Shown here: piece after piece, positions 27,327-41,137 of the stretch
Layout: each line of letters begins with the position of its first letter
How positions within the stretch are numbered: position 1 is the first letter of the stretch
Origin: an uncultured Bacteroidota bacterium
GTDB taxonomy: Bacteria > Bacteroidota > Bacteroidia > Bacteroidales > F082
Direction: 5' to 3'
Assembly: GCA_913009685.1 (NCBI GenBank)
Contig: CAJVXP010000009.1
Span: 1 to 64,000, forward strand
Length of the DNA: 64,000 bases
Translations under genes and position numbers: made by a program
The notes under the pieces: generated by a model
What the model was told of the DNA's origin: nothing
The model's database searches: none
Seen by the model: the letters and a program-made list of their open reading frames with translations, nothing else

Positions 27327-28022
27327 TTATTCTTCCGGACAGGAATCTTTGTTGGTAAAATAAGCCAGTTTTTCCAGCTTGCTAATCATGTCATAGTTTT
27401 CCACATGAATTTCTTTTGGCACTTTAAGGTGTACAGAAGTAAAATTCAATATCCCCCTTACTCCCGAGTCGATAATGATTTTTGAAATATCACCGGCAAA
27501 AGAGGAAGGCACTGCCAGAACAGACAGTTCAATATTTTCCCTTCGCATAATCTCTTTCATTCGCGAAATATTATAGCATTTCACATCAGGAAATTGCATC
27601 CCCGGCTCTTTGTCTATGCGGAAGGTTGCCGCCACTTGCAGCATGGTATCCTGATAATTGAAATAGTCGGCTACAGCCCGGCCCAAATCACCAACACCCA
27701 CAAAAGCAACTTTCTGTACATAAACACAGTCGATGGCACGTCCGATACTTTTGATAAGTTCAGAAACATCATAACCTTTGTGAATATCACCGGAAAAGCC
27801 GATGAGCATCAGGTCGCGACGTACATGCACCGGATTAATTTTCAGCAAATGCGCCAGTTGGTGCGAATGGATATGTGTTTTATCTTCCGTCTTTAAATTA
27901 AGAAGGGTTCGCCGGTAATTGCTCAGCCGTTCTACAGTGTTGCCAGGTAAATTCTTTATCATCGAAGTATGTATTCGTTTCTTAGTTTTTTGAGGGGCGC
28001 AATTTATAAATAATTCCAACAT
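27327..28022 (-). CDS. rex: Redox-sensing transcriptional repressor Rex
   Basis: LLKINPVHVRRDLMLIGFSGDIHKGYDVSELI, VAFVGVGDLGRAVADYF NAD-binding motif. Confidence 0.93.
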   Translation of the reverse strand: MLELFINCAPQKTKKRIHTSMIKNLPGNTVERLSNYRRTLLNLKTEDKTHIHSHQLAHLLKINPVHVRRDLMLIGFSGDIHKGYDVSELIKSIGRAIDCVYVQKVAFVGVGDLGRAVADYFNYQDTMLQVAATFRIDKEPGMQFPDVKCYNISRMKEIMRRENIELSVLAVPSSFAGDISKIIIDSGVRGILNFTSVHLKVPKEIHVENYDMISKLEKLAYFTNKDSCPEE

Positions 28023-28333: not shown

Positions 28334-28735
28334 ATGAAAAAATACATTTCATTATCAGTAAAATGTCCCTTTTGCGGAAAATCGCTCATGGATGGGGATG
28401 AGCTCCTTCATGGAGAGCCTACCATTAAACTGAATATTCAAACACGGGAAAGCAGAGGAATTATTCATCTGTGTTCCATTTACGAGTGTTTTGATTATAA
28501 AACAGAGGTGGCTCTTACCGAAAAGGAGGTTGTGGAATTTGTCTGTCCTCACTGCAATAAGGAGCTGAACACCAAAGATGTATGTCGCATTTGCCATGCT
28601 CCTATGGTTTCATTGCTTCTTAAAACAGGCGGAAGAGTAAGCCTGTGCTCACGAACAGGATGTGCCAATCACTATGTAGCTTTTGAGGATTTATCCACAG
28701 AGCTGCAAAAATTTTATGAAAAGTATGAGATTTAG
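28334..28735 (+). CDS. Small multi-zinc-ribbon-like protein
   Basis: Cys motifs CPFC, CPHC, CRIC, CSRTGC in 133 aa. Confidence 0.6.
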   Translation: MKKYISLSVKCPFCGKSLMDGDELLHGEPTIKLNIQTRESRGIIHLCSIYECFDYKTEVALTEKEVVEFVCPHCNKELNTKDVCRICHAPMVSLLLKTGGRVSLCSRTGCANHYVAFEDLSTELQKFYEKYEI

Positions 28736-28897
28736 GGTTTGTGAGGTAATAACCTAACTGTTTCGGCTCGTTCTTTTGCGCTTTTACTTTGTTGCAAAAG
28801 TTTTAAATAAACTGTGGCTATTCGCAACTTTTGCGCCTTGAAAAACCACAAAATTACTTCGTCGATTCCAGTCACGTTATTTCCTCACAAGCCCTTA
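28734..28897. mobile_element. MITE-like element, copy A
   Basis: Imperfect terminal inverted repeats AGGGTTTGTGAGGTAATAACCTAACTG / reverse complement of CAGTCACGTTATTTCCTCACAAGCCCT; internal GCAAAAGTT/AACTTTTGC; shares architecture with 56117-56277. Confidence 0.6.
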
Positions 28898-29911
28898 GCA
28901 AATTCGGGGTAATTGCTGCCCCGAAAGCATCTCAATCATTCTTTTGCCACCTACCGATGTGTTGAGCCAGGCTTTTCCGGGATGCTCGCTGGTTATCTCG
29001 CCAATAACAGCAGCTTGTTTACCCAGTGGATTAGCCTGCATGGCTTCGACGATTCGGTCTGCATCATTTGCTGCCACTACCATCACCAGTTTTCCTTCGT
29101 TTGCTACATAAAGCGGGTCGAAGCCCAGCAGTTCACACATTCCCCTCACCGAATCTTTCGGCACAAGTTTATCCTCATTTATCTGAATGCCGAAATCCTT
29201 TTTTCGCACCAGCTCGGACAATACCGTTCCGAGTCCTCCGCGGGTAGCATCGCGCATGAAGCGAATATTTTCCGAAACTTCCAACGCCTCTGCAATAAGT
29301 CCGTTCAAACAAGCACAATCCGACAAAACAGACGTTGAAATATTCATGTCATTTCGTGCCGCCATAATGGCCATGCCGTGCTCGGCAATTCCGCCGTTGA
29401 TAATGATTTTATCGCCTGCTTTTATGTTCTTTCCAGAGCTGATGGCCAACAAGTTATCGTCTATCTCCCCTACTCCGCTGGTATTGATGAAAATTTTATC
29501 GCATTTTCCTTTTTCCACTACCTTCGTGTCGCCGGTAGCGATGAAAACACCGGCCTTTTTGGCTTCTTCCGACATGCTTCTCACAATCTTTTCCAGCTCA
29601 TCAAGCGGAAATCCTTCTTCAAGGATAAATCCCACGCTCAGGTATTTGGGAACGGCCCCGGAAACGGCCAAATCGTTAACTGTTCCTGCAATAGCAAGCT
29701 TGCCAATGTTTCCGCCGGGAAAGAAAACCGGATCTACCACAAACGAATCAGTGGTAAATGCCAGATTTTGCCCATGTAACTTCAGAAGCGCCGAATCGCC
29801 CTGTTCGTGCAGGATAGGATTGTCGAAATAGCGAACAAACAAACTTTCAATTAATTCGTGGGTCATGCTGCCTCCGCTACCGTGTCCCATTAATATTTTA
29901 TCGTCTTTCAT
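28895..29911 (-). CDS. hypE: Hydrogenase expression/formation protein HypE
   Basis: MGHGSGGSMTHELIE, FTTDSFVVDPVFFPGGNIGKLA; C-terminal LPRIC. Confidence 0.97.
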   Translation of the reverse strand: MKDDKILMGHGSGGSMTHELIESLFVRYFDNPILHEQGDSALLKLHGQNLAFTTDSFVVDPVFFPGGNIGKLAIAGTVNDLAVSGAVPKYLSVGFILEEGFPLDELEKIVRSMSEEAKKAGVFIATGDTKVVEKGKCDKIFINTSGVGEIDDNLLAISSGKNIKAGDKIIINGGIAEHGMAIMAARNDMNISTSVLSDCACLNGLIAEALEVSENIRFMRDATRGGLGTVLSELVRKKDFGIQINEDKLVPKDSVRGMCELLGFDPLYVANEGKLVMVVAANDADRIVEAMQANPLGKQAAVIGEITSEHPGKAWLNTSVGGKRMIEMLSGQQLPRIC

Positions 29912-30066: not shown

Positions 30067-31149
30067 CTAACGATTATATAAATAGTACGCCTGGCAGGCT
30101 CCTTCGCTGGACACCATGCAGCTTCCCACCGGATCGCGGGGCGTACAGACTTTGCCAAACAGCCGGCAATCTTTCGGCTTTTTTAATCCCTTCAGCACTT
30201 CCCCGCAAATACATCCTTTTGGCTCACGCAAAGGCACCATTCCGTCTGCGCTGATGTTTACTTCCGCATCGTGAGCGGAATATTTGGATCTTAATTTCAA
30301 GCCACTCTCTTTTAGAACTCCCAAACCACGCCACCAGTCATCGGCAGGTTCAAAAACTTCATTCATCATCTGCTGTGCTTTTACATTTCCCTCCGGTTTT
30401 ACTGCTCGTTTATACTGAATCTCCACACGGGTATTTCCGGTTTCAATTTGTTTTATCAACATCAAAATCGACTGCATAAGATCGACCGGCTCAAAGCCAC
30501 TGATAACTACTCCAAGTCCGTATTTTGCAGGAATTCCCTCGTAGATTTTCATTCCGGTTATGGTACTCACATGGCCGGGACCGATGTAACCGTTAATCTT
30601 AACTCCTTCATCAATCAGTGCAGACATGGCAGGCGGCATAACTTTGTGAGCGCTGAATACAAAGAAGTTTGTTAGCTTTTCTCTGTATGCCTGCAAGATC
30701 GCTACTGCTGATCCCGGCGCTGTGGTTTCAAAGCCTATACCAAGAAAAACAATTTTCTTCTGCGGATGCTCACGGGCTATCTGCAAGGCATCCATAACAG
30801 AGTAAACCACCCGGATTTGCGCTCCGCCGGCATGCTCCTTTTCCAGAGAACTTTCCGAACCGGGAACGCGAATCAGATCGCCATAAGTAGCAATGATCAC
30901 ATCCTTTTGTTGACTGTATGCTATCGCTTTGTCGATATAAGAACGACTTGTTACACACACCGGACATCCCGGACCCGATATCAGCTCAACTGTGCCGGGC
31001 AGCAATGCCGGGATACCAAATTTTTGTATTGACATGGTATGACCTCCGCACACCTCCATGAGTTTAACCGGTTGTGTGGAAGCTTTCCTAATCTCCTGTG
31101 CAAGCGCCTGCACCACCTTCCTGTCTCTGAATTCATCAATATATTTCAT
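30067..31149 (-). CDS. hypD: Hydrogenase formation protein HypD
   Basis: MEVCGGHTMSIQKFGI, SGPGCPVCVTS, GFETTAPG. Confidence 0.97.
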   Translation of the reverse strand: MKYIDEFRDRKVVQALAQEIRKASTQPVKLMEVCGGHTMSIQKFGIPALLPGTVELISGPGCPVCVTSRSYIDKAIAYSQQKDVIIATYGDLIRVPGSESSLEKEHAGGAQIRVVYSVMDALQIAREHPQKKIVFLGIGFETTAPGSAVAILQAYREKLTNFFVFSAHKVMPPAMSALIDEGVKINGYIGPGHVSTITGMKIYEGIPAKYGLGVVISGFEPVDLMQSILMLIKQIETGNTRVEIQYKRAVKPEGNVKAQQMMNEVFEPADDWWRGLGVLKESGLKLRSKYSAHDAEVNISADGMVPLREPKGCICGEVLKGLKKPKDCRLFGKVCTPRDPVGSCMVSSEGACQAYYLYNR

Positions 31150-31448: not shown

Positions 31449-33734
31449 TCAATATTTTATGGATTTTCCCGTTTCCCGCCTCCGGGCTGCAATAGCGAGT
31501 TGTCCCAGCGCGATACCGCCATCGTTTGAAGGAACCTGCTCTTGGCTGTAAACTTCAAAGCCCTTTTTACGCAGCAAAATTTCTGTATTCTTTAACAGGA
31601 TTTTATTTTGAAAACTACCTCCTGAAAGTATTACTTTTTTCAAACCCGTTGTCACCGACAGTTTTTCCACGATCTTTTCGACAACCGTCACAACCGTATT
31701 ATGAAACTTTGCAGAAATTACAGACGAAGATTTTCCGTTTTCCAGATCATCTATCAAACCCGAAAACATTGGTTTAAAAGAGATTTGATCTTCCTGAATA
31801 GTAAACGGATAGCTGTCCCGAACATTTTCAGCGGCTACTGATTCGAGTCTCATGGGCGCTTCGGCATGATAAGAAGCTTCGGTGCAAACACCGGTAAGTG
31901 CTGATACGGCATCAAAAAGTCGCCCTGCACTGCTGGTTTCGGGACAATTTATTCTGTTTTTCAGCATAATCAAAACCATGTCGAAAGCTTCCTGCTCCAC
32001 ATAAGGGAAGAGCTCCCCTTGCATTTTCCGCAAAAAATCCTCACCAAAATAGTGATAAAGAGAGGAAACGGCCATTCGCCAGGGTTGCCGGATGGTCAAA
32101 TCCCCACCTGGTTGTAAAATATTTTCAAAATGAAACGGCCTTTCAAAATCTATCAGGTCGCAAATTAAAAATTCACCACCCCATATTTTCCCATCGGTAC
32201 CGAGTCCGGTTCCATCAAAGCTAACCCCTATTACTTTTTCATCAAGGTTATGCTCTGCCATACAGGAGGCTATGTGCGCATGATGATGCTGGATGAGTTC
32301 TATAGGCATCCCTGTTTCCATAGCGAATTTTGTAGAAAAATAATCCGGATGTAAATCGGCCGCTGCCAGAGAGGGCTTAAAGCGAAACAAATGCCGGAAT
32401 CGTTGAAAGGATTCGGTATAAAAATCAAGAGTTTCCGGATTTTTCAGATCACCAATATACTGACTCAGTAAAACTTTATTCCCTTTTCCGACGGCAAAAC
32501 AGTTCACCAATTCCGCACCTGCGGCAAAAAGCCCTTCCGTATTATGGCTGAGGGTTATTGACGCCGGCACATAAGCACGCGAACGTCTGATAACCCGCTC
32601 CTTTCCGTTCACCACCATACAAACCGAGTCGTCCAACCGGTTATAAATTTCGCGGTTGTAAGTGAGGACGTCATCTGCAATGCCGGCAAACTTCTCCACT
32701 GCCTTTTCATTATCAATAATAACCGGTTCGCCCGACAAATTTCCGCTGGTCATCACCAAAGCAGGGGTGCGTAATTTTTCAAAAAGCTGATAATGGAAAG
32801 GCATGTAAGGCAGCATGGCCCCCACGGTATTAAGCCCGTTGCTGACGGAGAAGGGCATCGGCTTCTTCTCCCGCAGCAGCACTATGGGACGGCGCCAGCT
32901 TTGCAGCAATTTTTCTTCTTCAGTATTTACATGTAGATAATTTCTCACCGTTTCCACATTGGCAAACATAACGGCCAGAGGTTTCCCCTCTCTGTTTTTT
33001 TTCAAACGTAACAGGCGAATGGTATCTTCATTGAAAGCATTACAGCTCAAATGGAAACCACCCAACCCTTTCATAGCCAATATTTTTCCCCCGTCCAGCA
33101 AGCGGACAACCTTTTTCAAAATGGTTTCAAAATCATCAAGGATTTCTCCATTGGACAAATGCAGCGAATATCTTGGACCACAGTGGTTGCAAGCTACCGG
33201 TTGGGCATGAAAACGCCTGTCAGGCACATCGGTGTATTCCGAATGGCAGGTATCGCACATTTTAAACGGTGCCATGGTAGTATTGTGCCGATCGTAGGGC
33301 AATACCTTTATTATACTAAACCGGGGGCCACAGTGCGTGCAATTTGTAAAAGGATAATCTATCCGGTGCGGTTGGCTTTTCATATCTTCCAGGCAGTCAT
33401 CACAAACCGCAATGTCAGGACTCACCTCTGTTATTTCATTGGAATAAGAATGACTTGGAAGAATGGAAAAGTTCTCGAAACCTGTTATTGGTTCCACCTT
33501 AATATTTATTGCGGCAATTTTAGAAGCCACAGGAGCCTCCGCTTTCATCGCCTTTATAAATTGTTGAAGATGGTTTCGGTTTCCCTCGGCCTGTACCAAA
33601 ACACCCTCGTTGTTGTTCTCCACATTTCCACGGATGGAGTGCCTTTTGGCCAGTTTATAAATAAAAGGGCGAAAGCCTACACCCTGCACCAGCCCTTTAA
33701 TCTCTATCTTATAAGCCTCAACAATCATTCCCAC
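31449..33734 (-). CDS. hypF: Carbamoyltransferase HypF
   Basis: Acylphosphatase domain, CDDCLEDM zinc fingers, YrdC-like region, HHHAHIASCMAEH. Confidence 0.97.
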   Translation of the reverse strand: MGMIVEAYKIEIKGLVQGVGFRPFIYKLAKRHSIRGNVENNNEGVLVQAEGNRNHLQQFIKAMKAEAPVASKIAAINIKVEPITGFENFSILPSHSYSNEITEVSPDIAVCDDCLEDMKSQPHRIDYPFTNCTHCGPRFSIIKVLPYDRHNTTMAPFKMCDTCHSEYTDVPDRRFHAQPVACNHCGPRYSLHLSNGEILDDFETILKKVVRLLDGGKILAMKGLGGFHLSCNAFNEDTIRLLRLKKNREGKPLAVMFANVETVRNYLHVNTEEEKLLQSWRRPIVLLREKKPMPFSVSNGLNTVGAMLPYMPFHYQLFEKLRTPALVMTSGNLSGEPVIIDNEKAVEKFAGIADDVLTYNREIYNRLDDSVCMVVNGKERVIRRSRAYVPASITLSHNTEGLFAAGAELVNCFAVGKGNKVLLSQYIGDLKNPETLDFYTESFQRFRHLFRFKPSLAAADLHPDYFSTKFAMETGMPIELIQHHHAHIASCMAEHNLDEKVIGVSFDGTGLGTDGKIWGGEFLICDLIDFERPFHFENILQPGGDLTIRQPWRMAVSSLYHYFGEDFLRKMQGELFPYVEQEAFDMVLIMLKNRINCPETSSAGRLFDAVSALTGVCTEASYHAEAPMRLESVAAENVRDSYPFTIQEDQISFKPMFSGLIDDLENGKSSSVISAKFHNTVVTVVEKIVEKLSVTTGLKKVILSGGSFQNKILLKNTEILLRKKGFEVYSQEQVPSNDGGIALGQLAIAARRRETGKSIKY

Positions 33735-33766
33735 TTTCTAATTTATAACCATTTTAAATTCCGTAC

Positions 33767-33784
33767 CTGTGATTTATTTCACGA
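33767..33784. promoter_or_regulatory. Rex-operator-like site 1 in divergent hyp/hox promoter
   Basis: CTGTGATTTATTTCACGA, 11/14 arm positions match TTGTGAA-N4-TTCACAA; 9 bp upstream of the hox -7 element. Confidence 0.55.
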
Positions 33785-33793
33785 ATAAATTTA

Positions 33794-33802
33794 TACTTTT
33801 GC
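33794..33802 (+). promoter_or_regulatory. -7 promoter element for hoxF operon
   Basis: TACTTTTGC matches TAnnTTTG; 45 bp upstream of hoxF ATG. Confidence 0.55.
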
Positions 33803-33819
33803 TGTGAATTTTTTAACAG
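33802..33819. promoter_or_regulatory. Rex-operator-like site 2 at the predicted transcription start
   Basis: CTGTGAA-TTTT-TTAACAG, arms symmetric at 6/7 positions, 35 bp centre-to-centre from site 1. Confidence 0.55.
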
Positions 33820-33846
33820 GGCAAAAATAATACAAATTAATAATCT

Positions 33847-35733
33847 ATGGCAGAAAAATCGAAAATAAATCAGTTGCTGGCTCAATTTGGTTACGACAAA
33901 ACCAGATTGATGGATATCTTATTATCAATCAATGAAATGCAAGGGTTTGTAGGGCAAGAAGACATGCAAAACATATCAGACTCCTTAGGTATTTCAATGG
34001 CTCAGGTGCAGGAAACCCTTTCTTTCTATCATTTTCTCTCCCAAAAGCCACGCGGAAAGTATAATATTTATCTTGACAGCAGTATAATAGCCTTTATGAA
34101 CGGCAGAGAAGCCGTAAAAGAGGCTTTTGAAAAATATTGCGGAATATCGTTTGGAGAAGTGTCTGATGATGGTCTTTTCGGACTGTTTAACACATCCTGT
34201 ATCGGGATGAACGATCAGGAACCGGCCGCCATTATAAACGATAAAGTTTTCACAAACCTTACTCCCTATCGTGTTATGAATCTTGTGGAGGGAATGCGTG
34301 CCGGGAAGCACATAGACGATTTGGTATATGAAGACTATGGTAATGGTAACAATTCCGACCCTGATGTAAGGGCGATGGTCAACAATCATATCAGAAAGAA
34401 ATCTATCATTCTGAAAAATGATTATGAGCCCTATAGCCTTTTAAAATCAAAGTTAAAAGACTACAGTCCGGAAGAGGTCATTAGTGAAATTGAAGCCTCT
34501 AATCTGCGAGGACGCGGTGGAGCAGGCTTCCCCACGGGTCTGAAATGGCGTTTTGGTCGTCGCACGGAAGGGAAACACCGGGTGATCATTTGTAATGCCG
34601 ATGAAGGCGAACCCGGCACTTTCAAAGACCGCGTAATGCTAACTGAGTATCAGGAACTGGTGTTTGAAGGCATGGTTGTAGCAGCTTATGCAACAGGTGC
34701 TGACATCGGTCTGCTCTATTTACGCTATGAGTACAAGTATCTGCTCCGGTTTTTAAATCGCAAACTCGCCAAAATGCGTGAAGATCATTTCCTCGGAAAA
34801 AATATTGCCGGCGTGAAAGATTTCAATTTCGACATACGTATTCAATTAGGTGCAGGAGCCTACGTCTGTGGCGAAGAGTCAGCGCTGATTGAATCGTTGG
34901 AAGGCAAGCGGGGCGAACCACGCGACAAACCACCGTTCCCCGTCGAAAAGGGTTATCTTGGCTATCCGACAATTGTAAACAATGTGGAAACCCTTGCTAC
35001 CGCAGTAAAAATACTGCATCACGGAGCCGAATGGTATTCAAACTTCGGAACCAAAGATTCGCTTGGAACCAAATTGCTCAGTATTTCGGGCGACTGTCGT
35101 TATCCGGGCATTTACGAAGTGGAATGGGGAACAAGTATCCGCGAAATCCTGGCCATGAGCGGCGCTGACGATGTGCAAGCCATCCAGGTGGGTGGCCCTT
35201 CGGGTATGCTTATCGGCTTGAAAGACATTAACAATCTGGATAACAGCGAGCTGATGAAATGGTATAAACCTTCGGGTATGATGATTGCGGAGAAATTTTT
35301 CGACCGGAGGCTTAGCTATTCAGACCTCCCTACCGGAGGTTCTATCATTATTTTTAACAACAGCCGTAATTTGCTTAGAGAAGTCGTTATGAACTTCATG
35401 GACTTTTTCATTGAAGAATCCTGCGGTTCCTGCTCCACCTGCCGCAATATGCCGTTGCTGATGAAAAATAAATTGCAAAAGATTCTGGATGGACATGGTA
35501 TCAGAAAAGACATCTACGACCTTCTCAACTGGGGGAAAGTGCTGAAAGCCAGTCGCTGCGGATTAGGACAAGCAGCAGGCAATCCGATTCTTTCTTCTGT
35601 TTTTCATTTCAGGCATTTATACGAGCAACGTATTCAAAGTCTTACCAGTTTCGACAGTGGATTTGATCTGGGAAAGGCAACGGCCACATCAAGTGAATTT
35701 GTAAATAAAAAACCGGCATTTCATCATTTTTAA
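33847..35733 (+). CDS. hoxF: NAD-reducing hydrogenase diaphorase subunit HoxF (NuoE-NuoF fusion)
   Basis: N-terminal NuoE-like region; LRGRGGAGFPTGLKWRF, NADEGEPGTFKDRVM, GAGAYVCGEESALIESLEG; ESCGSCSTCR...C. Confidence 0.93.
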   Translation: MAEKSKINQLLAQFGYDKTRLMDILLSINEMQGFVGQEDMQNISDSLGISMAQVQETLSFYHFLSQKPRGKYNIYLDSSIIAFMNGREAVKEAFEKYCGISFGEVSDDGLFGLFNTSCIGMNDQEPAAIINDKVFTNLTPYRVMNLVEGMRAGKHIDDLVYEDYGNGNNSDPDVRAMVNNHIRKKSIILKNDYEPYSLLKSKLKDYSPEEVISEIEASNLRGRGGAGFPTGLKWRFGRRTEGKHRVIICNADEGEPGTFKDRVMLTEYQELVFEGMVVAAYATGADIGLLYLRYEYKYLLRFLNRKLAKMREDHFLGKNIAGVKDFNFDIRIQLGAGAYVCGEESALIESLEGKRGEPRDKPPFPVEKGYLGYPTIVNNVETLATAVKILHHGAEWYSNFGTKDSLGTKLLSISGDCRYPGIYEVEWGTSIREILAMSGADDVQAIQVGGPSGMLIGLKDINNLDNSELMKWYKPSGMMIAEKFFDRRLSYSDLPTGGSIIIFNNSRNLLREVVMNFMDFFIEESCGSCSTCRNMPLLMKNKLQKILDGHGIRKDIYDLLNWGKVLKASRCGLGQAAGNPILSSVFHFRHLYEQRIQSLTSFDSGFDLGKATATSSEFVNKKPAFHHF

Positions 35734-35746
35734 AGTATTTCAGATA

Positions 35747-36457
35747 ATGGAAAAAACAAATAATAAAATAAGGATTACCATTGATGGAAAGAGAACCTAT
35801 GTCACAAAAGGCTCTACCATTGTGGAAGCAGCGAAAGAAAACGGAATTTACATTCCTACACTTTGCCACTTTGAGGGGGCTGACCCCAAAGCTTGTTGTC
35901 GCATGTGTACCGTAAAAATCAACAACCGTATGATGACCTCCTGTACCACACCTGTAACAGAAGGTATGGAAATAGAGAATGATACGGAAGAGCTGAACGA
36001 AGTTCGGAAAAGCATCATCGAACTGCTGTTTGTCAGCGGCAATCATTTCTGCCCTGCTTGTGAAAAAAGCGGAAATTGTGAACTCCAGGCACTTGCCTAC
36101 CGTTACAAGATGCTGGTTCCGCGTTTCCCATACAGCTTTCCCCGCAAGGAAGTGGATGCCTCCAGCCCGAAAATTATAAAAGAACAAAACCGGTGTATTG
36201 CTTGCAAACGCTGCATAAAGACCATCCGCGATGAGCACGGGAAACACTATTTTGCCTACAAAAACCGCGGGCAGCATTTGGAAGTAATCCTCGATCCGGT
36301 TCTCGGGGACACCATGCCCGATGATCTTGCGAAAAAAGCCATGGAAAATTGTCCGGTAGGTTCTATCCTTTACAAAGAAAAAGGATTTGACCAGCCCATT
36401 GGAACCCGGAAATATGACAAGCAACCTATTGGAAGTGAAATTGAAAATAATGTTTAA
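35747..36457 (+). CDS. hoxU: Hydrogenase diaphorase subunit HoxU
   Basis: 2Fe-2S ferredoxin domain plus CPACEKSGNCELQ and CIACKRCIKT. Confidence 0.93.
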   Translation: MEKTNNKIRITIDGKRTYVTKGSTIVEAAKENGIYIPTLCHFEGADPKACCRMCTVKINNRMMTSCTTPVTEGMEIENDTEELNEVRKSIIELLFVSGNHFCPACEKSGNCELQALAYRYKMLVPRFPYSFPRKEVDASSPKIIKEQNRCIACKRCIKTIRDEHGKHYFAYKNRGQHLEVILDPVLGDTMPDDLAKKAMENCPVGSILYKEKGFDQPIGTRKYDKQPIGSEIENNV

Positions 36458-36467
36458 AGCGTAAATT

Positions 36468-37016
36468 ATGAATAAAAAAATATTAGCCACTACTTCACTT
36501 GCCGGATGTTTCGGCTGCCACATGTCCATACTGGACATTGATGAGCGAATTCTGGATCTCATAGAGCTGGTGGAATTCAACAAATCACCTATTGATGACA
36601 TTAAAAAATTTACCAAACCGGTAGATATCGGGATTATAGAAGGAGGCTGTTGCAATAGCGAAAACGTGGAAATTCTGAAATATTTCAGAGAAAATTGCAA
36701 GATTCTGGTTTCTCTCGGAGAATGTGCCATTATGGGAGGTTTGCCGGCTATGCGCAACGGAATTCCCATTGAGGAATGCCTGAAAGAGGCGTATATCGAT
36801 GGCCCTACCGTACAGGAAAACAAGGAGCATATCCTCCCCAACGATGAAGAGCTTCCTCTTTTGCTCGACCAGGTATATCCATGTCACGAAATTGTAAAAA
36901 TCGATTATTTCCTTCCGGGATGTCCTCCCCGTGCCGACCTTATTTGGAATGCACTTTATGCGCTCATTACCGACAATCCCATGGAAATACCTTACGAAGT
37001 AGTCAAATTTGATTAA
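36468..37016 (+). CDS. hoxY: [NiFe] hydrogenase small subunit HoxY
   Basis: TSLAGCFGCHMSILDID, EGGCCNSENVEIL, SLGECAIMGGLPAMRN, LPGCPPRADLIW. Confidence 0.95.
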   Translation: MNKKILATTSLAGCFGCHMSILDIDERILDLIELVEFNKSPIDDIKKFTKPVDIGIIEGGCCNSENVEILKYFRENCKILVSLGECAIMGGLPAMRNGIPIEECLKEAYIDGPTVQENKEHILPNDEELPLLLDQVYPCHEIVKIDYFLPGCPPRADLIWNALYALITDNPMEIPYEVVKFD

Positions 37017-37027
37017 AAAATAGCAAT

Positions 37028-38482
37028 ATGTCAAAGAAAATAACCATAGAACCTGTTACAAGAGTTGAAGGCCACGGAAAAGTTACAATCCAAATGGATG
37101 ATAATCATCAGGTTATAGATTCCAGGCTACACATTGTTGAATTTCGCGGCTTCGAACGTTTTGTTCAGGGAAGGCCTTACTGGGAAGCGCCCGTTTTGGT
37201 ACAACGGCTTTGCGGCATTTGTCCGGTAAGCCATCATATAGCTGCTGCTAAAGCACTGGATGTTATTGTGGGAGCCGGTGATGGCGATGGGCTGACGGCC
37301 GTAGGTGAAAAAATGCGTCGTCTTATGCACTACGGCCAGTTTTTCCAATCGCATGTTTTACATTTTTTTCATCTGAGTTCTCCTGATTTCCTGTTTGGTA
37401 TTGATGGCGACCCTGCCATGCGAAATATTGTCGGTGTTGCTCAGGTACACAAAGAGCTGGCAGTACAAGGTGTTATGATGCGAAAATTCGGCCAGGAGGT
37501 CATTCGTCTTACCGCCGGAAAGAAAATCCACGGAACGGGAGCCATTCCCGGTGGCATCAACAAAAATCTCAGCATTGCGGAGCGCGATGAGCTCTTAAAA
37601 GGTCCTGACCCGCTAAATGCTGACAAAATGATAGAATGGTCGCTGTCGGCTCTGGAGTTCTTCAAAAATTATCACAAGCAAAATCACGCCAAAGTCGATG
37701 ATTTTGCCAGCTTTCCTTCCAACCATTTGAGTATGGTAAGAAAAGATGGTGCTTTGGACATTTATCACGGTGTACTCCGTGCAGTGGACAGCGAAGGAAA
37801 CCGGATTCTCGACGATGTTGACTACCACGAATATTATAACTACATCGAAGAAGAAGTAAAAAGCTGGAGCTACATGAAGTTCCCCTATCTGAAACATTTG
37901 GGAAAAGAGAAAGGCTGGTATCGTGTAGGACCGCTGGCACGCCTGAACACTTGCGATTTTATCCCCTCTCCCCTTGCTCAAAAAGAATTTGAAGAGTATA
38001 AAGCTTATACCCACGGCAAACCCAACAACATGAGTCTGCATTATCACTGGGCACGGCTGATAGAAGTGCTGCATGCCGCCGAGGTCATCCGGGATTTACT
38101 CCATGATCCGGATTTACAAAATGAAGACCTCGTTGTTAAGGGAAAGAAACAAAAAGAAGGTGTGGGCGTCATTGAAGCACCCCGTGGGACACTTTTCCAT
38201 CATTACAAAATCGATGATAATGATTTGATTACCATGGCTAACCTGATTGTTTCGACCACCAACAACAACGAACCCATGAACCGGGCCGTTGAAAGTACGG
38301 CACGGGCGTTTATGAACGGACAGGAAACGATTACCGAACCCATGATGAATGCTGTTGAAGTAGCCATCAGAGCCTATGACCCCTGCCTGAGTTGCGCCAC
38401 ACATGCACTGGGGCAAATGCCTCTCGAAATGACCATTTTAGGAGCAAGCGGGCGGATTTTAGATCACAAAATGAAAGACTGA
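37028..38482 (+). CDS. hoxH: [NiFe] hydrogenase large subunit HoxH
   Basis: L1 motif RLCGICPVSHHIAAAKALD and L2 motif DPCLSCATH followed by a 25-aa C-terminal extension. Confidence 0.97.
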   Translation: MSKKITIEPVTRVEGHGKVTIQMDDNHQVIDSRLHIVEFRGFERFVQGRPYWEAPVLVQRLCGICPVSHHIAAAKALDVIVGAGDGDGLTAVGEKMRRLMHYGQFFQSHVLHFFHLSSPDFLFGIDGDPAMRNIVGVAQVHKELAVQGVMMRKFGQEVIRLTAGKKIHGTGAIPGGINKNLSIAERDELLKGPDPLNADKMIEWSLSALEFFKNYHKQNHAKVDDFASFPSNHLSMVRKDGALDIYHGVLRAVDSEGNRILDDVDYHEYYNYIEEEVKSWSYMKFPYLKHLGKEKGWYRVGPLARLNTCDFIPSPLAQKEFEEYKAYTHGKPNNMSLHYHWARLIEVLHAAEVIRDLLHDPDLQNEDLVVKGKKQKEGVGVIEAPRGTLFHHYKIDDNDLITMANLIVSTTNNNEPMNRAVESTARAFMNGQETITEPMMNAVEVAIRAYDPCLSCATHALGQMPLEMTILGASGRILDHKMKD

Positions 38483-38487
38483 AAACA

Positions 38488-38952
38488 ATGAAAAAGATTC
38501 TTGTTTATGGTTACGGAAATCCCGGACGGCAAGATGATGGCCTGGGTGTGAGCTGTGTAAAAATGTTGAAAGAATGGGCTGAGAAGAATTTTCCGGGTAC
38601 TATTGATGTGGATATGAACTATCAGCTTAATATTGAAGATGCAGAGAAAATTTCACATTACGATAAGGTGATTTTTGCCGATGCTTCCTGCGAAAATATC
38701 CATCAATTTGCATACACTACGATTAAGCCTTCCGACGCACAGCTCGAATTCAGCATGCATGCCGTCGCTCCGGCTTATGTGCTTTATTTGTGTCGTTCGC
38801 TTTTCGGGAAACAACCGGTGAGCCATCTGTTGCACATTCGCGGTTATGAATGGGGTATGCAGGAAGGGCTGACCGAAAGGGCAAAAGAGAATCTTGAAGT
38901 GAGCTTCCATGCCATGACCGGGCTTTTAACAGACTACTTATCAGATAATTAA
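38488..38952 (+). CDS. hoxW: Hydrogenase maturation protease HoxW
   Basis: VYGYGNPGRQDDGLGV, directly after hoxH; start set to internal MKKILVYG. Confidence 0.88.
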   Translation: MKKILVYGYGNPGRQDDGLGVSCVKMLKEWAEKNFPGTIDVDMNYQLNIEDAEKISHYDKVIFADASCENIHQFAYTTIKPSDAQLEFSMHAVAPAYVLYLCRSLFGKQPVSHLLHIRGYEWGMQEGLTERAKENLEVSFHAMTGLLTDYLSDN

Positions 38953-38963
38953 AAATTTATATT

Positions 38964-39962
38964 ATGGATTTATCCACAACCTATATGGGATTAAAGCTGA
39001 AAAATCCGATAATAATCAGCAGTTCAAGAATAAGCGGCGAAGTGGAGACTATTCGGCAATGTATTAGCTACGGCGCCTCAGCTGTTGTTCTTAAGTCGAT
39101 TTTTGAGGAACAAATGAGCCTGCGGGCTGAGGCAAGGTTAAAACAGAGCAAAGAAAATGAAGCCTACTACTGGTTTTCCGAAGCCAGGGAATATATTTTA
39201 AATCTTTCTAAAGAAGCTGTACTGGACCACTATCTGCAATTTGTTAAAACAACCAAGGCTATTGATGCTTCCGTACCGATTATCTCCAGTATCCATTGTA
39301 AAAGTGCCGACAACTGGCCAAAATATGCCAAAGAAATTGAAAATGCAGGTGCTGATGCACTGGAGCTGAACATTTCCATTTTTCCGTTCAACAACAGCAT
39401 GTCCAGCATTGAAATTGAAGACCTTTATGTGAAAATTCTGGGAAAGGTAAAACAGGAAGTCAGTATACCGGTTTCCATAAAGCTGGGACCATTCTTTACC
39501 AATCTCTGCACGCTCATCAGGCGTTTGGTTGATGCAGGTGTCGATGGATTGGTACTGTTTAACCGCTACTTCAGACCCGATATTGACATTGAATCCTTAA
39601 AAGTCGTCAGCCGCGAGCATTTTTCCTCTCCTGAAGAGATGAGTCTGCCCTTGCGATGGATAGCCCTGCTGAGTGGTAACGAGGTGTCCTGCGATCTGGT
39701 CGCCTCCACCGGCATTCATTACGATACGGCTCTAATAAAACAAATTCTTGTAGGGGCACGGGCTGTAGAAGTTTGCTCTACCCTTTTTCAAAACGGGATT
39801 CCCCATATTGCAAAAATGCTGGGAGGCTTGGAGAACTGGATGAAGAAACATCACTTTGAAAGTCTGGATGACTTCCGCGGAAAATCGCTGGATTATCAAA
39901 CCACTGATGCCAGCTTCGAACGTATTCAGTATATGAAAAGAGATTTTGAAGAAATATTTTGA
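38964..39962 (+). CDS. Dihydroorotate dehydrogenase-like (PyrD-like) flavoprotein inside the hydrogenase operon
   Basis: MDLSTTYMGLKLKNPIIISSSRIS...ADALELNIS...PVSIKLGP...DGLVLFNRYF. Confidence 0.88.
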   Translation: MDLSTTYMGLKLKNPIIISSSRISGEVETIRQCISYGASAVVLKSIFEEQMSLRAEARLKQSKENEAYYWFSEAREYILNLSKEAVLDHYLQFVKTTKAIDASVPIISSIHCKSADNWPKYAKEIENAGADALELNISIFPFNNSMSSIEIEDLYVKILGKVKQEVSIPVSIKLGPFFTNLCTLIRRLVDAGVDGLVLFNRYFRPDIDIESLKVVSREHFSSPEEMSLPLRWIALLSGNEVSCDLVASTGIHYDTALIKQILVGARAVEVCSTLFQNGIPHIAKMLGGLENWMKKHHFESLDDFRGKSLDYQTTDASFERIQYMKRDFEEIF

Positions 39963-40336: not shown

Positions 40337-41137
40337 ATGTGTATGACATGCGGTTGTGGTAATTCCACAGAGAACAACGTACTGATAGCCAGGCCGGGAA
40401 AAGTAAATCCGGAGGAGCTGTCGTTGATGCCCGAACAAAAACATGACCACGAGCATCCTCATCACCATCATCACGACCATCCGCATACAAAAACCGTGGT
40501 TGAGATGGAACAGGACATCCTGCAAAGCAACAATCTGACTGCCGAGCGAAACAGAGGCTTTTTCGAAGCAAAAAATATTCTTGCACTGAATCTTGTTAGT
40601 TCTCCCGGTTCCGGAAAAACCAGTTTTCTCGAAAAAACCCTTCACGACCTGAAAGATGAAATACCATTTTCAGTAATTGAAGGTGACCAACAGACTTTTA
40701 ACGATGCGCGACGAATTGAATCACAAGGCATTCCGGTAGTTCAAATTAACACAGGACAAGGTTGCCATCTCGACAGCGACATGGTTCACAGGGCGCTGAA
40801 AAAGCTGAACCCTCCGGAAAAGGCTGTCGTTATGATTGAAAATGTTGGTAACCTCGTGTGCCCTGCACTTTTTGACCTCGGCGAGAATAGCCGCATTGTT
40901 CTTATCAGTGTTACGGAAGGCGATGATAAACCCATAAAATACCCTGATATGTTTCAATCTGCGGATATATGTATCATCAACAAAATCGATTTATTACCCT
41001 ACGTAAACTTTGACATGGAAAAAGCCAAAGATTATGCAAAACGGGTCAACCATCATTTAAAATTCTTTGAAATATCCGCCACAACCGGCGAGGGCATGGA
41101 TGCCTGGTATGACTGGCTGAGAAAAGAGAGAACGTAA
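40337..41137 (+). CDS. hypB: Hydrogenase nickel incorporation protein HypB, His-rich
   Basis: MCMTCGCGN, HDHEHPHHHHHDHPHTKT, GTPase SSPGSGKTSFL, INKIDLLPY. Confidence 0.96.
   Translation: MCMTCGCGNSTENNVLIARPGKVNPEELSLMPEQKHDHEHPHHHHHDHPHTKTVVEMEQDILQSNNLTAERNRGFFEAKNILALNLVSSPGSGKTSFLEKTLHDLKDEIPFSVIEGDQQTFNDARRIESQGIPVVQINTGQGCHLDSDMVHRALKKLNPPEKAVVMIENVGNLVCPALFDLGENSRIVLISVTEGDDKPIKYPDMFQSADICIINKIDLLPYVNFDMEKAKDYAKRVNHHLKFFEISATTGEGMDAWYDWLRKERT

Follow-up and report, generated by a model that had tools for sequence, protein, structure and literature searches.

What controls the divergent promoter between hypF and hoxF in the window analysed here (a 64,000-nucleotide stretch of the metagenome-assembled genome of an uncultured Bacteroidales bacterium), and to which signal would the hydrogenase genes on its two sides respond? 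Most of what is known of Rex repressors comes from Gram-positive bacteria and Thermotogae, and the regulators known for hox operons are of other kinds (HoxA type; LexA/AbrB in cyanobacteria). A sequence-only reading had proposed that two Rex-operator-like palindromes bracket the -7 element of hoxF, that the second lies next to a minus-strand -7 element of hypF, and that a rex gene ~6 kb away could sense NADH/NAD+ for an NAD-linked hydrogenase. Rex proteins are DNA-bound with NAD+ and released with NADH (PMC8836258, PMC6125430), and the Rex consensus is given as TTGTGAA-N4-TTCACAA (Ravcheev et al. 2012, as cited in PMC5317091). From comparative analysis we consider it highly probable that the palindromes are Rex operators, that the hox-hyp genes are repressed at low NADH/NAD+ and released as NADH builds up, and that RexH, a Rex paralogue encoded in the window, is the most likely regulator.

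The supposition of an NAD-linked hydrogenase proved sound. The genes to the right of the promoter (Table 1) encode an NAD-reducing-type [NiFe] enzyme in which a HoxH/HoxY catalytic pair is accompanied by the NAD(H)/FMN-binding subunits HoxF and HoxU. HoxH is closest to that of the Hydrogenophilus HoxFUYH enzyme (PDB 5xf9), with which the cluster also has in common a HoxF of the NuoE + NuoF type, a HoxU and a small subunit. Homologues of hoxF were detected in most related genomes, and hypF is divergent from hoxF in most orthologous loci. Many relatives keep the dihydroorotate-dehydrogenase-like gene within their hox operon. A small zinc-ribbon-like protein without confident family assignment (28334-28735) likewise adjoins hypE in many relatives.

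Table 1. Features of the hydrogenase region and of related loci. Positions are those of the window unless a contig or locus is named.
Feature	Position	Strand	Family match or remark
rexH, Rex paralogue	27327-28022	-	NCBIfam NF003995, PF06971 + PF02629
hypE	28895-29911	-	TIGR02124
hypD	30067-31149	-	TIGR00075
hypF, divergent from hoxF	31449-33734	-	TIGR00143; alternative ATG at 33728 possible
Element U, palindrome AATTTATAACCATTTTAAATT	33740-33760	.	absent from the sequence-only reading
Candidate Rex operator site 1, CTGTGATTTATTTCACGA	33767-33784	.	upstream site, overlaps -33 region of hox promoter
hoxF -7 element TACTTTTG, Bacteroidota type	33794-33801	+	between sites 1 and 2
Candidate Rex operator site 2, CTGTGAATTTTTTAACAG	33802-33819	.	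abuts -7 box downstream, covers expected transcription start
Candidate hypF -7 element TATTTTTG (plus-strand letters CAAAAATA)	33822-33829	-	beside site 2
hoxF, fused NuoE + NuoF type diaphorase	33847-35733	+	PF01257, PF01512, PF10589
hoxU	35747-36457	+	PRK07569 HoxU, 182.7 bits, under model cut-off 333
hoxY, hydrogenase small subunit	36468-37016	+	PF01058
hoxH, [NiFe] hydrogenase large subunit	37028-38482	+	best PDB match 5xf9, 539 bits
Hydrogenase maturation protease	38488-38952	+	TIGR00072
Dihydroorotate-dehydrogenase-like protein	38964-39962	+	PF01180
hypB	40337-41137	+	TIGR00073
Canonical rex	genome studied (G000), contig C5:68603-69256 (L113)		
Nickel-locus site pairs	L240:5549-5599 (G000 contig C25), L239:4249-4300, L238:4687-4738		

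Both palindromes are present exactly where the sequence-only reading had placed them, on either side of the hoxF -7 box; site 2 over the expected transcription start and site 1 at the -33 region are classical repressor positions. Their likeness to Rex operators depends on the form of the motif that is used. Sites 1 and 2 each have 3 mismatches to the textbook TTGTGAAN4TTCACAA, and at this threshold (<=3 mismatches) the window holds 11 matches versus 6.5 +/- 2.4 in shuffled sequences and the 2.1-Mb genome 223 versus 135 for the reversed pattern, so the textbook consensus alone proves little, and ranking sites by it was set aside as uninformative. The motif had been named correctly in kind, but the consensus that applies locally is (C/T)TGT(G/T)AA-N4-TT(A/C)ACA(G/A) and not the textbook form. 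Compared to the 18-bp inverted repeat TTGTKAA-N4-TTMACAA, site 2 has 2 mismatches, which fall on the outermost bases, and site 1 has 3. A matrix was constructed from the canonical rex promoter sites of 17 other genomes, with the genome studied left out. In the 64-kb window it placed site 2 first (19.75 bits, ~9 bits above the top non-hox position at 10.85) and site 1 third (9.68 bits). A ranking across the genome by a Bacteroidota motif had been suggested as a check; here the matrix was applied to the window and the whole genome was scanned by pattern searches. A second matrix, derived from the hox promoters of other genera, gave 23.8 bits for site 2, 13.7 for site 1 and 9.2 for the next position in the window.

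Lack of conservation at orthologous hox/hyp loci had been named beforehand as the refuting outcome, and the relatives' promoters did not show it. A TGT(G/T)AA-N4-TT(A/C)ACA palindrome like site 2 was found in 62/62 same-family hoxF promoters (50 in the first set and 12 further ones). With <=2 mismatches and directly 3' of an exact TANNTTTG box, site 2 occurs in 47 of the 50 orthologous promoters, a phylogenetically non-independent sample, and in 0/4000 simulated promoters. Site 1 is paired with it at 33-36 bp in 39/50 orthologues (0.00175 in simulation) and is absent from the other 11. The palindrome arms average 1.66 bits per base over the 50 promoters versus 0.25 for the downstream sequence; HoxF identity among the relatives drops to ~60% and the flanking DNA is not conserved. 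At the level of the order, hoxF homologues are mixed for the presence of a site, and no convincing site was detected at those below ~45% identity. Given the conservation with fixed spacing, we accept the palindromes as real despite the weak textbook match.

The claim of a minus-strand -7 element for hypF stood in its position and in part in its conservation: CAAANNTA lies <=14 nt past site 2 in 8 of the 10 genus members that have a hox promoter and in 16/50 overall, the chance of finding it near site 2 being 0.7% per promoter. Within the genus, hypF and the hox operon are thus likely to share control via site 2.

The genome studied encodes two Rex proteins. The canonical one, encoded on contig C5, has CTGTTAAATGAATAACAA in its promoter just past a TATATTTG box, as would be expected under autoregulation; of the 20 relatives compared, at least 17 have such a palindrome just past TANNTTTG at canonical rex (17 by an automatic rule), and the others have motif matches nearby. 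In addition to canonical rex, the motif precedes pta, nqrA, a 3-hydroxyacyl-CoA dehydrogenase gene and a phosphofructokinase gene in this genome (names read from the gene sequences). Of these, pta, nqrA, 3-hydroxyacyl-CoA dehydrogenase and rex are typical Rex targets. Conservation of the nqrA copy does not reach beyond the genus, and for this reason it was counted as weak support.

The rex gene thought to lie ~6 kb away was found at 5.7 kb from the promoter, and its product, RexH, is a genuine Rex (178.7 bits against NCBIfam NF003995, cut-off 126) with an N-terminal PF06971 winged helix and a PF02629 Rossmann domain in which GVGDLG fits GxGxxG. The NADH-switch residues of Thermus aquaticus Rex are Arg16, Tyr98 and Asp188 (PMC6125430); by alignment to B. 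subtilis Rex, the RexH segments RLSNYRR, ADY and VENYD retain the switch Arg, Tyr and Asp. The canonical Rex proteins of the genome studied and of relative G002 have Asn at the expected position of the switch Asp, which RexH keeps. The RexH clade comprises 30 sequences with support 100/100 on a long stem. The recognition helix reads NPAHVRRD in most of its members versus T(A/P/S)VQVRRD in canonical Rex, and the wing reads GD(I/V)HKGY versus mostly G(S/T/N)LRKGY. In the complex of Thermotoga maritima Rex with DNA (PDB 7WB3), Lys43, Gln46, Arg48, Lys49 and the wing residues Arg60 and Gly61 contact DNA (PMC8836258). Arg48 and the basic residue 49 have their counterpart in the RRD that the two Rex proteins encoded here share. 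RexH departs from the Thermotoga protein at Lys43 and Gln46, which are replaced by Asn and His, and in its wing (GDIHKGY). With its altered recognition helix and wing, RexH might read a different sequence. The upstream region of rexH contains no convincing Rex site, and autoregulation of rexH was dropped from consideration.

In 13 genomes rexH is located within a few kb of hoxF. Family genomes with RexH are 36 hox-positive and 5 hox-negative, and those without it 29 hox-positive and 20 hox-negative (p = 0.004; the counts are approximate, as RexH and canonical Rex were classified by identity). RexH as sole regulator of all hox operons is ruled out, since 22/50 hox genomes are without RexH and retain the operators, so that canonical Rex must suffice there. 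In the genome studied, RexH, alone or together with canonical Rex, is the most likely regulator.

Three other explanations were weighed. The palindromes could be a chance AT-rich likeness around the transcription start, to which no regulator binds; the 3 textbook mismatches of each site, the 223 genome places of equal quality and the AT-rich surroundings would allow this, but it is hardly credible when the -7 box plus site arrangement never arose in the 4000 simulated promoters and the conserved arms stand out so sharply from the downstream sequence. A regulator of the Crp/Fnr family, at least 4 of whose DNA-binding domains are encoded in the genome, might bind instead, as site 1 reads TGTGA-N6-TCACG and is one mismatch away from TGTGA-N6-TCACA. 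This alternative was set aside, since only 33/100 half-sites of site 2 (50 orthologues) have the G of TGTGA; most half-sites are TGTTA, the inner AA/TT is nearly fixed and the identical motif occurs at rex promoters, which together make this a quite improbable reading.

Closer to the evidence is the proposal that canonical Rex alone binds the sites, with RexH a bystander or acting on other targets. The hox operators do match the canonical rex promoter motif and are kept in the 22 hox genomes that lack RexH, the DNA-contact residues are altered in RexH, and two genomes (G004 and G056) have RexH and no detected hox genes. The proposal is nevertheless at odds with a RexH clade that is conserved, sits near hox in 13 genomes and shows a statistical association with it across the family, and with the Asn of the resident canonical Rex where RexH keeps the NADH-switch Asp. 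TGTGA half-sites are also more frequent with RexH (25/56) than without it (8/44; p = 0.006), a hint of co-evolution that is confounded by phylogeny. We regard control by canonical Rex alone as unlikely, though deserving of serious consideration.

Under the preferred reading, control of the hox-hyp genes by Rex with RexH as the most likely regulator, we infer that Rex binds and represses and that it responds to NADH, as well as the direction of the response and the Rex protein that acts. At low NADH/NAD+ a Rex dimer would occupy site 2, atop the expected hox transcription start, as well as site 1 in the -33 region, and would block the hox operon. As site 2 seems to serve the divergent hypF promoter too, transcription of the hyp genes would probably be shut off along with it. 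On accumulation of NADH, Rex would leave its sites, and the cell would express the NAD-linked [NiFe] hydrogenase together with its maturation genes. The hydrogenase is then predicted to dispose of excess NADH as H2; expression upon NADH accumulation suits the oxidation of NADH with release of H2. In this way the NADH/NAD+ ratio would be tied to H2 metabolism by a HoxFUYH-type enzyme that many members of the family have, and perhaps also to its nickel supply.

A Rex regulon on an NAD-linked hydrogenase is of a known kind. In Caldithrix abyssi an operon (Cabys_3675-3679) containing rex and an NAD-dependent [FeFe]-hydrogenase has the site cTGTGAATCAATTCACAt, and repression at low NADH/NAD+ was predicted by the same reasoning (PMC5317091). 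The two systems have in common a local rex, a near-identical operator, an NAD-linked hydrogenase and the predicted logic; in Caldithrix the enzyme is a bifurcating [FeFe] hydrogenase and rex heads the operon, whereas in the Bacteroidales cluster the enzyme is a [NiFe] one of the HoxFUYH type, the hyp genes are divergent and rex sits at the cluster edge. Features shared with Rex regulons in general are the length and spacing of the palindrome, its outer and inner bases, its placement over the promoter, its occurrence at canonical rex and a set of targets that belong to NADH-linked energy metabolism. The Bacteroidales form differs in that T is allowed at the fifth base (TGTTAA) and the ends are often C/G, and here the sites are paired 33-36 bp apart and a second Rex paralogue is linked to the target cluster. 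The open-access papers searched gave no account of Rex acting on known hox operons or on any Hox-type hydrogenase of Bacteroidetes. Comparative genomics now defines a Rex motif, its targets and a hydrogenase-linked paralogue for uncultured Bacteroidales; the added interest lies in the dedicated paralogue, the tandem operators and a nickel locus.

At that locus, three genomes of the genus have paired Rex-like sites 33-34 bp apart, with nikR and the TonB-receptor gene on one side and nikM, for a nickel/cobalt importer, on the other (Table 1); G002 and G008, which also have nikM, carry a single site there. The nickel locus gave no Rfam match, and a riboswitch was therefore set aside. If these sites work, metal supply would be coupled to the same signal as hox. 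Elsewhere in Bacteroidales, a rex gene of another lineage lies directly upstream of hoxF in G131 (L290) and G103 (L293), and downstream of hox in G101 (L289). This placement suggests that rex genes may have been recruited repeatedly to hox clusters in this order; each of the three loci has a candidate Rex site. Somewhat short of an even chance, in our estimate, is a dedicated circuit in which the duplicated RexH controls hox, the maturation genes and nickel uptake via tandem operators, apart from the housekeeping Rex, and in which rex genes of other lineages were recruited beside hox elsewhere in the order. With short DNA targets and two Rex proteins, the division of labour is open to direct test.

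A third palindrome, element U (AATTTATAACCATTTTAAATT), is also present in the intergenic region. It occurs with <=2 mismatches in 50/50 hox promoters, 38 of them perfect, compared to 2.5% of simulated promoters; it lies 59-63 bp before site 2 in 46/50 and is also kept in lineages that lost site 1. From this conservation, element U is probably the binding site of a second regulator, and its position ~58 bp upstream of the expected start makes an activator site probable. The copy in the hox promoter is the sole perfect one in the genome; near copies upstream of PFOR/gdhA, rpoD, enolase and other genes rule out a purely hydrogenase-specific element. Upstream of rpoD (L154:1501-1541; G000 contig C23:11089-11129), an element-U-like palindrome is directly followed by the Rex-like sequence TTGCGAAACTTTTCACAA.
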